DNA of 35,856 bases from a virus, in IMG/VR virus record IMGVR_UViG_3300003690_000157, positions 1-35,856 of that record; one strand, 5' to 3'. How positions within the stretch are numbered: the stretch's first letter is position 1; each line of letters starts with the position of its first letter. The notes below the pieces were generated by a model. It was given only the letters and a program-made list of their open reading frames with translations, did not search any database and was not told the origin of the DNA. Positions 7,232 to 26,781 of this stretch are shown one piece after another. The position numbers and the translations under genes are program-made.

Positions 7232-9596
7232 CCCGTACTCTCATGTTCGTGCGATCCATGTTCATTTTTTTCAAATTAACATTCGCGCGCAGTTGGGCAA
7301 TATCTTCCTGTGACTGTATTTTTTCGTTATCAATTTTATCTTTTTGCGCAAGTTTTTTCTGATCCAAATTCAGTTTGCCAAAGTCGTATTCCTTCTCTGC
7401 TTGATCACGCAAAGCACGTTGCTGTAATTCTTGTTGCTTGAGTTGAATCACGGGATCTGGCTGACCTTCCCCGCTTAACTCTGCTTGTTGCTGTTTCACT
7501 TCTGCCATGAACTGTGCTTCCAAGACCGCAATCTGTGACTGCACCATTGGTTCCACGTCCCCTTCCGCCGATTGACCCATTTGCGTTTCCGCTTGTTCCA
7601 ATTGCATGGCTACTGCTTCTTCCGCCTTCAAGGTGACATGTTCCTGGATATGCTTGTTCAAGTCGATGGCGATTTGAGGCATTATCTCCAAGACTGGGGA
7701 TGTTCCAAAAAGTAAATGGGATTGTATATGGGCATCATGATTTTGTCCTTCATACGCTTGAATGGAATCGCTTTCCAATAATTTTTTTTGTTCCTGTGTT
7801 GGGCTCAATGGTTCGGGTTGATCCTCTTTCATAATCTTGTCAATATCTTTTACTCCAAGCGCCTCGTACATTCGTCGATAGGCTTCCCGCATATTGTGCA
7901 TCTGTGGTGCACTTGTTGCTAGCTGCAATTGAGTTTGAGCCAATTGGATGCGTTGCGCCATGGAGAAAATATCAGGATTAGCGACAGGGACAATGTCCAC
8001 TCGGTCGTCGAAATCCTCTTGTTTGATAGAACGATCCCCTCCCACTACCATGTAGGGGTATTCGGGGGGAAGATAGATGGAAATAACCTTGGCAAGGAGT
8101 CCAAATTCTTTTTTCATAGAATAGTACAGTCTCTTGTGGATGGAACTCATGATCCTTGAACCGCGTTCAAGTAATGCAATCGTTGTTCCCACGGGAGCTT
8201 GTTGATTGGCATCACCAACTTGCATATCCGCAATTTGCGCAAAGCGTTGTCCCGCTTGCACGACAAATCCTAGAAGAGTGAATAATGTTTGTGACGGTTC
8301 CTTGTATGGAAGTGGTAATAGTCCTGCCCTAATTTCCCCACTTGGAGCGTCCACGTCCCTGAATTCCCCTGGCTGTAATGGTGTGTCATCATCCTTGATC
8401 CGTAGACCGCGCGCCTTGAAGCCCGCTGGCAAATTCGACAAGGTTCCCGCATCAAGCAGTTGCCTCAGCGCCGTTGTCGCAGTGCGCGACAATCCACCAA
8501 TCAAGTGAATTAACCCAAAGCCATAAAATCCAAGTCCTGGGAGAAATTTAAAATGAACAAAATACTGTTTCTTTTTGAAGAGCTCATCGTCTTCATTATA
8601 GTTGCGTCTGACCGCAAGAACGGTTCCCGACTGTTCATCCAAGGTAACAAGGTATGGCAGTTTAATTCCCGTCTTCTTGTCCTCTTGCGTGTCCTCATAA
8701 CCGACCAAGTCCAATGAAACATGGAACTCTAATAATTCTCGAACCATGCTTTCCCCCGTCGCCTGCACCCCCTCCAACTGATGGATCTTATCCGTCACAT
8801 TGGCGGTGGAGTAGGTTGGGGTGTTGGGTTGATACGGCACAAGATCCACGTCGCGGTAAAATCCGCTCACCTGTTTCTTGCGTACGTCATTGTCTGTTAG
8901 CTTGACGATATGGGTAATGCGTTCACATGACTCCAAGTCGGTCGCGGTATAGGGCACCACGAGATCTTCGGCGGGAACAAATTTAGATACCGCGCGCCCT
9001 AGCTCCGCATCATAGTAGACTTTTTTAAATGTCGATCCCGAGAGCGGCAAATAAAAAAGCATCTGATCGAGTTCTGGAGTGTACTCCTCCATCACTGTTG
9101 TAATTTGATAATTCATGAATTCCTTCACGCGCTGCGCCTGCTGATAAATCTCGGGCGTTTCCTTGCCCATGACACGTGTACGGACTGGCCCGTCTGCGGG
9201 CATGAGTTCCTTGTAAGCTGCTGAACTGAATTGTGTAACGGCTTCCGCCAAGAGAGGGTGGGTGACACCGCTAGCCCCCTGGAAGGGACGGGTGCGATCC
9301 ACGTACTTGAAACCGAGGAGGTTCAAGCCTTGCGTATAGGTATGCTCCCATTCATCGCGAGAAGACTTGTCGTTTTGGAATTCCCCCAACAAGTCGGATG
9401 ACATTCTTCCCAATTCGGTATCGTCCATGTCCTCCGCTAAATTCTTGTAGAAGTCATCGTCCTCGAGTGGCGCTTCGTCGACCTCGACTGTCTCTGAAAC
9501 AATCTCGATATCAACGGGTTGTCCCGTGTCTATCGCCTCTTCAATGACATCACCTACGACAGAATTAAGTTTCTTGTCTATGTTGTCTTTTGGCAT
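7206..9596 (-). CDS. Portal protein
   Basis: 796 residues, within the size range of long podovirus-type portals. It forms the dodecameric ring at one capsid vertex through which DNA enters and leaves and to which TerL docks. Visible features: an acidic N-terminus, HPLLAEAVTQFSSAAYKELM near residue 110, central beta-rich parts (SGSTFKKVYYDAELGRAVSKF), a GFGLIHLIGGLSRTATTALR helix near 360, GTTIALLERGSRIMSSIH (about 475), and a long Gln/Glu coiled-coil C-terminus (after 640) that could form the barrel or an inner tail. It lies downstream of TerL and the 886-residue protein. Only a weak ribosome site (AGG) precedes the ATG. Confidence 0.85.
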   Translation of the reverse strand: MPKDNIDKKLNSVVGDVIEEAIDTGQPVDIEIVSETVEVDEAPLEDDDFYKNLAEDMDDTELGRMSSDLLGEFQNDKSSRDEWEHTYTQGLNLLGFKYVDRTRPFQGASGVTHPLLAEAVTQFSSAAYKELMPADGPVRTRVMGKETPEIYQQAQRVKEFMNYQITTVMEEYTPELDQMLFYLPLSGSTFKKVYYDAELGRAVSKFVPAEDLVVPYTATDLESCERITHIVKLTDNDVRKKQVSGFYRDVDLVPYQPNTPTYSTANVTDKIHQLEGVQATGESMVRELLEFHVSLDLVGYEDTQEDKKTGIKLPYLVTLDEQSGTVLAVRRNYNEDDELFKKKQYFVHFKFLPGLGFYGFGLIHLIGGLSRTATTALRQLLDAGTLSNLPAGFKARGLRIKDDDTPLQPGEFRDVDAPSGEIRAGLLPLPYKEPSQTLFTLLGFVVQAGQRFAQIADMQVGDANQQAPVGTTIALLERGSRIMSSIHKRLYYSMKKEFGLLAKVISIYLPPEYPYMVVGGDRSIKQEDFDDRVDIVPVANPDIFSMAQRIQLAQTQLQLATSAPQMHNMREAYRRMYEALGVKDIDKIMKEDQPEPLSPTQEQKKLLESDSIQAYEGQNHDAHIQSHLLFGTSPVLEIMPQIAIDLNKHIQEHVTLKAEEAVAMQLEQAETQMGQSAEGDVEPMVQSQIAVLEAQFMAEVKQQQAELSGEGQPDPVIQLKQQELQQRALRDQAEKEYDFGKLNLDQKKLAQKDKIDNEKIQSQEDIAQLRANVNLKKMNMDRTNMRVRDAFKDRKK

Positions 9597-25630: not shown

Positions 25631-26113
25631 TTATTTTATCTCTATTGTTTTTGCCTTTTTTCCTTCGGGAACAATGCGCTCCAATGATACTTTTAAGAGC
25701 CCATCCTTGAGTTCCGCCCCTTTTACTTCTACATCATCGGCAATAGTGAATGACCTAGTGAAATGGCGACGCGCAATTCCCTGATGGATGACGTTATCGC
25801 CCGCCGCATATGTTTCTTTTCTCAGCTTCCCACCAAAGGACGTGTCAATCCAAATTGGCGCTTCATCCATACTGACTGACTTAATGGTTAAAAGATTGTC
25901 CGCATAGTTTACGGCGATATCCTTTTTGCCATAGCCCGCCACAGCCACTTCAATGTCATAAAGTTGGTCGGATTTTTTTACAATGTTGTAGGGCGGGTAG
26001 GGATTTGCTGTACGAAATTCCCCCTCATCGAACATGCGCTCGAAATGATCGAACATACTGTCGAAGCCTACGGATATTGGTCTGAGTTGATTAAAAATAG
26101 ATAATGCTTTCAT
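25631..26113 (-). CDS. Hsp20/alpha-crystallin small heat-shock protein
   Basis: 160 residues, like bacterial IbpA. The alpha-crystallin domain spans about 40-145: YPPYNIVKKSDQLYDIEVAV, GYGKKDIAVNYADNLLTIKS, RRHFTRSFTIADDVEVKGAE and the typical ADLKDGLLKV-like AELKDGLLKVSLER; a C-terminal IEI replaces the IxI anchor. It is an ATP-free holdase that keeps unfolded proteins soluble, known from T4-like cyanophages and marine phages. It is translated from AGGA 7 bases before the ATG, and that site is folded into a ROSE-like hairpin, so heat-induced translation is expected. It has its own promoter at 26198-26225. Confidence 0.9.
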   Translation of the reverse strand: MKALSIFNQLRPISVGFDSMFDHFERMFDEGEFRTANPYPPYNIVKKSDQLYDIEVAVAGYGKKDIAVNYADNLLTIKSVSMDEAPIWIDTSFGGKLRKETYAAGDNVIHQGIARRHFTRSFTIADDVEVKGAELKDGLLKVSLERIVPEGKKAKTIEIK

Positions 26114-26116
26114 AGT

Positions 26117-26190
26117 AATCTCCTTTTAAAGCAAGATTTATTAGGATCCATTATGGCATCCTATGAAGATACTTGGTGGCAAGTATCTTC
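26117..26190 (-). promoter_or_regulatory. ROSE-like RNA thermometer in the hsp20 leader
   Basis: The leader RNA (minus strand) folds into three successive hairpins. First: GAAGATACTTG (26190-26180 by complement) with CAAGTATCTTC, 11 pairs and a 4-base loop. Second: TAGGAT...ATCCTA, 26163-26142, extended by CCAT/ATGG with one bulge. Third, 26138-26117: AAUC pairs with GAUU, and UUGCU pairs with AGGA leaving the G bulged, around a UUAAA loop. UUGCU opposite the ribosome-binding AGGA is the ROSE signature of small heat-shock genes. Melting would free the ribosome site. Confidence 0.75.
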
Positions 26191-26197
26191 GCTTATT

Positions 26198-26225
26198 AAT
26201 ATACATCTTATTTTTTAAAATTCAA
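26198..26225 (-). promoter_or_regulatory. Promoter of the hsp20 gene
   Basis: On the minus strand: TTGAAT (26225-26220), 16-base gap, TATATT (26203-26198). Transcription would start about 26191, exactly at the first leader hairpin, giving a leader of roughly 78 bases. Confidence 0.6.
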
Positions 26226-26317: not shown

Positions 26318-26560
26318 CTAGTCAAGAACGATTCTCAATTTGCGAAACAAGGTACGATCGAGGCACGCCCCGTGGTAGATGGCTATACTCGGCTTCCCCA
26401 ACCAATTCGTATCTTCATATGTTTGTAAGACAAATTTGTCATCGGGAATTTCTCCTTGAGAATTACAGGCTTTGCACGGAAGTTCAACTTTTTCAGCCTC
26501 GAATTCATGGCGTGTAAAGCCATCTCCACCACAATTGGGACATATTTTAAATCCCTCCAT
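26318..26560 (-). CDS. DnaJ-type zinc-finger protein
   Basis: 80 residues from the ATG at 26560 (TAGGAA upstream); a longer start at 26626 would overlap the gene before. CPNCGGDGF and CKACNSQGEI are CxxCxGxG repeats of the DnaJ zinc domain, but only two of the usual four, enough for one zinc site; no J-domain is present. The C-terminal part is unassigned. It stands next to Hsp20, and may bind unfolded protein or simply be a small zinc protein. Confidence 0.65.
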   Translation of the reverse strand: MEGFKICPNCGGDGFTRHEFEAEKVELPCKACNSQGEIPDDKFVLQTYEDTNWLGKPSIAIYHGACLDRTLFRKLRIVLD

Positions 26561-26598
26561 ATCTTTTTTCCTATTGTAATGTTCGGGGTTCCACGGCA

Positions 26599-26781
26599 TC
26601 AGAGCTTGCTTCGGCATTGGCTGCAAAAGCGGTCAAACTTGCTGTGACGTGTATAGTCCTTGGAGCAGATGTTGCACTGGAATGTGCCCAGACCTGATTG
26701 CCCTGGAAAATGCTTGTTGGACTGTGCTCCCCGTGGATACGATTTTCTTCTTTTGGTCGAGTAGTGTCTTGGCCCTGTCAT
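26599..26781 (-). CDS. Small zinc-finger protein
   Basis: 60 residues. A basic N-terminal half (STKRRKSYPRGAQSNKH) and a C-terminal finger FQCNICSKDY...RFCSQCRSKL (Cys36, Cys39, Cys53, Cys56). Basic, so DNA or RNA binding is plausible. ATG overlaps the previous stop by 4 bases. Confidence 0.6.
   Translation of the reverse strand: MTGPRHYSTKRRKSYPRGAQSNKHFPGQSGLGTFQCNICSKDYTRHSKFDRFCSQCRSKL

Follow-up and report, generated by a model that had tools for sequence, protein, structure and literature searches.

A 35.9-kb virus record of 41% GC (the window, meaning the whole stretch of DNA analysed here) carries an hsp20 gene whose leader is likely a ROSE-type RNA thermometer, a reading to which we assign a probability of roughly 0.78. 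The temperature response itself is inferred, in the absence of probing or expression data. That the anatomy of the leader is ROSE-type we hold to be very likely. Our analysis shows the position of the element, its signature, a two-hairpin architecture with a bulged G, covariation in the first of these two hairpins (hairpin II) and, across the genomes we checked, a strong link to chaperone genes. Repression in the cold, melting on warming and a benefit to infection are all inferences.

The original prediction had described a promoter, three hairpins and a masked Shine-Dalgarno (SD) sequence in the minus-strand leader at 26111-26225, and all of these elements were found where it placed them (Table 1). 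Hairpins I and II are stable and hairpin III is weak; the leader with the first bases of the coding sequence folds with a z-score of -5.4 relative to shuffles, mostly owing to hairpins I and II. The core of hairpin II can also be written AGGAU-g-CCAUAAUGG-AUCCU. Hairpin III ends 3 bases before the start codon (ATG, 26113-26111), and G26132 is unpaired in its predicted form; UYGCU is conserved, and non-canonical pairs in its core are putative. The promoter match is weak, as about two 9/12 matches per kb are expected by chance, and we dropped it as evidence for the leader although the near relative L001 shares it. Just upstream of it we observed a ten-pair hairpin with UUUCCUCCU in its loop (26268-26228, minus strand), also kept in L001, and upstream of hsp20 a small protein (26318-26626, minus strand) that weakly matches the DnaJ zinc-finger domain (E 1e-4, short of the Pfam cut-off).

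Table 1. Features of the hsp20 gene and its leader in the window
Feature	Position	Strand	Basis and remarks
hsp20 / IbpA-type small heat-shock protein gene	25631..26113	-	160 aa; Pfam HSP20 PF00011, E 1.6e-13
Putative promoter, TTGAAT-16-TATATT	26198..26225	-	TTGAAT 26225-26220, 16 bases, TATATT 26203-26198; 9/12 consensus; weak alone; same in L001
Hairpin I, GAAGAUACUU(GCCACC)AAGUAUCUUC	26165..26190	-	Predicted fold; found in window and L001 only
Hairpin II with bulged G, U-AGGAU-g-CCA(UAA)UGG-AUCCU-A	26142..26163	-	Fold; ROSE_3 first-hairpin layout; covariation in relatives
Hairpin III, AAUC-UUGCU-UUAAA-AGGA-GAUU, masks ribosome site	26117..26138	-	Sequence; fold if RNA ends at AUG; R1 match
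UUGCU anti-SD, ROSE signature	26130..26134	-	UYGCU here in most distinct viral leaders
AGGA Shine-Dalgarno	26121..26124	-	7 nt before ATG
AAAGCA, codons 2-3 (Lys-Ala), complementary to UGCUUU of the anti-SD	26105..26110	-	Third bases unchanged on tree of relatives

Among named phages, the nearest relatives of the window's Hsp20 are found in the Pelagibacter phages Mosig (59.6% identity) and HTVC008M. Pelagiphage terminases are likewise among the nearest to the window's large terminase, which is 58-60% identical to those of phages HTVC027P, HTVC023P, 023Pt_psg01 and DSL-LC04.

We gathered hsp20 genes from IMG/VR, named phage records and bacterial genomes. Of 173 distinct viral hsp20 leaders, 161 (93%) had a UYGCU with an AGGA after it at SD spacing. 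Two records in the viral set, L010 and L315, are unverified as phage and may include host DNA, but they are too few to alter the result. Within the same loci, the motif preceded 151 of 164 hsp20 genes compared to 3 of the 283 other genes whose SD is AGGA, and one of these three is a phage dnaK. An upstream hairpin with a bulged G was present in every one of the 161 viral UYGCU leaders, with a C after the bulged G in 155, whereas a G-C at the bulge position occurred in 3% of shuffled segments.

The compensatory changes that the original prediction called for in relatives were found, strongly for hairpin II and sparsely for hairpin III. In a MAFFT alignment that was not structure-fitted (A5, 30 rows), 100% of hairpin II cells were paired with 43 double changes, and the covariation score was 0.71 compared to at most 0.14 when the pairing was slid. 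The rows of A5 were picked for having such a hairpin, which inflates the percentage paired and the pair changes less so; model-fitted alignments agree on the covariation of hairpin II. Hairpin III covaries little, both of its strands being nearly fixed, and most of its pair changes are confined to the Y position and to the outer pair (C-G to U-G, A-U). Because the sequence is nearly fixed, support for hairpin III rests more on conservation opposite the SD than on covariation. The SD columns are misplaced in MAFFT alignments A4 and A5 because loop lengths vary, and A6 was restricted to one loop length. Together, the covariation of hairpin II and the near-universal UYGCU facing the SD support the predicted ROSE-like reading. 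Two variants were also seen: L138, L152 and L154 keep hairpin II with its bulged G but lack the UUGCU hairpin, hinting at a separate role for hairpin II, and in L003, L166, L175 and L189 the anti-SD reads UGUCU instead of UUGCU, possibly with a shifted bulged G.

A covariance model (R1) built from 15 phage leaders, with the window and L001 left out, matched the 35.9-kb window at 26162-26116 on the minus strand with 46.6 bits (E 4.8e-9), the runner-up reaching 10.4 bits (E 1.4). R1 matched 20 of 22 whole phage records, and in the annotated ones its best match lay directly before hsp20. Best matches include Mosig 8369-8427, HTVC008M 91903-91965, P-SSM4 141645-141692, S-RIM2 136608-136656 and Bellamy 135920-135970. 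Training sequences necessarily match the model, but the window, Mosig, HTVC008M and the cyanophages lay outside the training set. P-SSM4 (NC_006884.2) has a second, weak R1 match at 463-523 on the minus strand (22.2 bits, E 0.012).

The Rfam ROSE models, proposed as a check on the original reading, failed to match the window at any threshold, even E 10, and with one exception matched some relatives only below threshold. Phage relatives gave 24-42.9 bits with ROSE_3 (RF02523; threshold 43), including full-length matches at the right place for the hsp20 gene of L348 (42.9 bits) and for Methylophilales phage Melnitz-3 (34.1 bits) and further full-length matches of 30.5, 28, 27.9 and 27.7 bits. 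The Pseudomonas record L010 exceeded the Rfam ROSE threshold, while the other matched relatives fell below it. Two other RNA elements were considered and rejected: a preQ1-II riboswitch match was at chance level (17.6 bits, threshold 47), and a fourU thermometer is ruled out by an SD that faces UUGCU, not four U. A separate hsp20-bearing virus contig, L066, carries a glutamine riboswitch above threshold at 1622-1670 (RF01739, 57 bits).

Pelagibacter phages, Methylophilales phages and cyanophages (phages of Prochlorococcus and Synechococcus) all carry the element, the cyanophages being P-SSM4, S-B64, S-RIM2, S-TIM4, S-SKS1, MA10 and Bellamy, as do Pelagibacteraceae genomes whose Hsp20 is nearest to the phage proteins. 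Four phages lack it or have an altered form: Cyanophage S-TIM5, Vibrio phage PWH3a-P1, Salicola phage SCTP-2 and Pseudomonas phage Callisto (UUGCG). Because cyanophages carry it too, the element does not indicate a proteobacterial host, and the earlier inference of such a host failed. The Hsp20 proteins of cyanophages are reported to lie closer to bacterial class A than to their cyanobacterial counterparts (PMC3827213), which fits a joint transfer of gene and thermometer and agrees with the ROSE_3-like form of the cyanophage leaders. The original statement that no ROSE element is well described in a phage is consistent with our search, limited to open-access literature, in which we found none. 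In 62 of the 161 viral leaders, a distance of 4-7 nt separates the hairpin II core from the end of an upstream TATAAATA, the T4 late promoter motif, so that transcripts would begin at about hairpin II. In the main ibpA genes of SAR11-type bacteria (L248-L299), the leader has one more hairpin, with ACGCUUAAGGAGGU preceding the start; this may be another variant of ROSE.

According to a review (PMC4166951), ROSE invariably accompanies small heat-shock genes. We found ROSE-like leaders about 10-60 nt before phage dnaK (Hsp70) genes in L318, L319, L323, L324, L327 and L328, some matching the phage model over both hairpins. Three of them (L318, L319 and L323) read CUCU-UUGCU-UAAUA-AGGA-GGAG, and L324 and L327 scored 39.5 and 33.1 bits. 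ROSE-like leaders also preceded phage groES (L330-L333 and L345-L347, at about 940-1000; 25-37 bits), with UYGCU opposite the SD in 7 of the 18 groES loci found. One 14.6-kb contig (L348, G010) carries dnaK-groES-groEL-hsp20; its groES and hsp20 have clear ROSE-like leaders, its dnaK only a weak one. These genes were named by Pfam for one dnaK and by reading of the sequences for the rest. The terminase profile PF03237 found none on the dnaK and groES contigs; their phage nature therefore rests on IMG/VR and, in part, on neighbours that match phage protein families, and is least firm for G009 (L327/L350). Among virus contigs with ROSE-like-led groES or dnaK, L333 (497-805) and L350 (5537-5927) carry a permuted, beta-type tmRNA, and L350 also carries many tRNAs.

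Folding at 10 to 45 C, also proposed as a check, proved equivocal. Only for an RNA that stops at the AUG is hairpin III the minimum-energy fold; with coding sequence, ViennaRNA favours pairing of GCUUU with AAAGC of codons 2-3 over the SD pairing by about 2 kcal/mol, and prefers it at every temperature in that range. Base-pair probabilities in leader folds shift little with temperature. We therefore rejected temperature folding as proof of sensing, as the competing fold wins once coding sequence is included. A Pseudomonas ibpA-type control retains its hairpin with coding sequence, whereas many phage leaders do not.

In the thermometer reading, the stable upstream hairpins would fold first, and in the weak last hairpin UUGCU, with one G bulged, would pair with AGGA and hold back translation of Hsp20. 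Warming would open this hairpin and let ribosomes bind, so that the holdase could be made fast from mRNA already present. The two-hairpin layout has been proven a thermometer in Pseudomonas ibpA by probing and reporters (PMC3669281). The original suggestion that the phage makes holdase only when the host is warm or stressed remains an inference. Second layers may exist in the form of Hsp20 feedback on its own leader, like that of E. coli IbpA, and of competition by AAAGCA from the coding sequence.

Feedback could also be the whole explanation: Hsp20 or host IbpA would bind the leader and block translation until drawn away to unfolded proteins, with melting a minor factor. We regard this as unlikely, and RNA binding by phage Hsp20 is inferred. 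E. coli IbpA represses its own mRNA via the 5' UTR and needs Arg93 to do so (PMC10474464), and 210 of the 212 viral Hsp20 proteins that were scored have the matching residue (Arg116 in the window's). E. coli IbpA residue numbering was used in aligning Arg93 to phage Hsp20. The retention of hairpin II in the three leaders without a UYGCU hairpin also speaks for feedback. Against it, proteobacterial IbpA proteins share this Arg, which may be retained for other reasons, and feedback leaves the conserved UYGCU opposite the SD unexplained. Since phage Hsp20s keep the Arg required by E. coli IbpA, feedback may act on a thermometer element too, and it is conceivable, by inference, that the element is also a site of Hsp20 autorepression. 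Two further alternatives fare worse. The hairpins might merely stabilise late phage mRNA or be a relic of gene capture without regulation; RNA in the 62 leaders with the late promoter motif would start with hairpin II, but a relic would not covary, and stabilisation does not explain why 93% of leaders place UYGCU opposite the SD or why the element also occurs on other chaperone genes, making this very unlikely. A 13-codon upstream ORF (26151-26110) that overlaps the hsp20 start as ATGA could control hsp20 by translational coupling; it is preceded by AGGA and kept in L001, but just 24 of 161 viral leaders have an ORF that ends at the hsp20 start, with differing sequences, and we rejected it as a regulator for lack of conservation, leaving it all but excluded.

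A two-state switch would refine the thermometer and not replace it: UUGCUU would have two alternative partners, the SD (closed state) and AAAGCA in the first codons, and the competing arm would help to set the balance or lock the region of the start codon a second time. We consider this possible but rather unlikely. In phage Hsp20 proteins that start Lys/Arg/Gln-Ala, the Ala codon is GCA in all 93 distinct cases, and Lys is AAA in all 79 where Lys precedes. The third bases of AAAGCA, which falls within codons 2-5 of phage hsp20, are unchanged on the tree, compared to up to 18 changes in neighbouring codons and 6-21 changes in four other conserved Ala codons. In viral genes, complementarity was higher than in every one of 200 synonymous shuffles, an excess that bacterial genes did not show, and the ViennaRNA fold favours the AAAGCA pairing. 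However, an association between UUGCU and AAGCA that at first looked strong was not supported once kinship was controlled, there being too few independent pairs; the UCGCU group shows no matching change to AAGCG, the AAAGCA arm is absent from cyanophages and several other groups, and its constraint could serve something else.

Returning to the ROSE-type thermometer, the same leader stands before most hsp20 genes of the marine phages examined, and we infer that many phages probably delay the chaperone until warmth or stress. If true, temperature governs how much chaperone many marine phages make, a point of relevance to infection as the seas warm. The phage-trained model finds elements that Rfam misses, and the results suggest that phages spread a proteobacterial-type thermometer along with its gene. 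A bolder reading, taken as one joint claim, is slightly more likely to be wrong than right: that phages have a ROSE-controlled protein-folding regulon in which hsp20, dnaK and groES lie under the same thermometer, unmatched by Rfam at threshold; that it was carried with hsp20 into cyanobacterial phages; and that one large phage group gained the competing AAAGCA arm and with it a two-state switch.

The closest known system is ROSE_3 of Pseudomonas ibpA (RF02523, PMC3669281), which likewise occupies about 60 nt of the 5' UTR of ibpA/hsp20, begins with a stable hairpin with a bulged G (GAUGCC..GGxUC; ROSE_3 consensus GAUGCC..GGGUC) and pairs U(U/C)GCU to the SD in a second hairpin. In contrast, the leader described here is phage-borne and A+T-rich, has an extra 5' hairpin I and the competing AAAGCA, and has an Rfam score below detection. 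Classical ROSE elements (Bradyrhizobium hspA and E. coli/Salmonella ibpA, with 3-4 hairpins) share U(U/C)GCU facing the SD of a small heat-shock gene and the series of several hairpins, of which the window has three, but the window's last hairpin is shorter and has no Rfam match. Lambda cIII, the SPbeta blyA fourU and the Caudoviricetes sigma70 fourU (PMC11182007, PMC10586365) also place a phage gene under RNA temperature control; lambda cIII acts in the opposite direction, with more translation when cooler, the blyA and sigma70 thermometers are fourU, and none of the three is ROSE or controls a chaperone gene. The cyanobacterial hsp17 and hspA thermometers likewise mask the ribosome site of a small heat-shock gene. 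One Anabaena thermometer has a ROSE-like sequence (PMC4166951), whereas Synechocystis hsp17 uses a single, different hairpin and the cyanophage leaders resemble ROSE_3.
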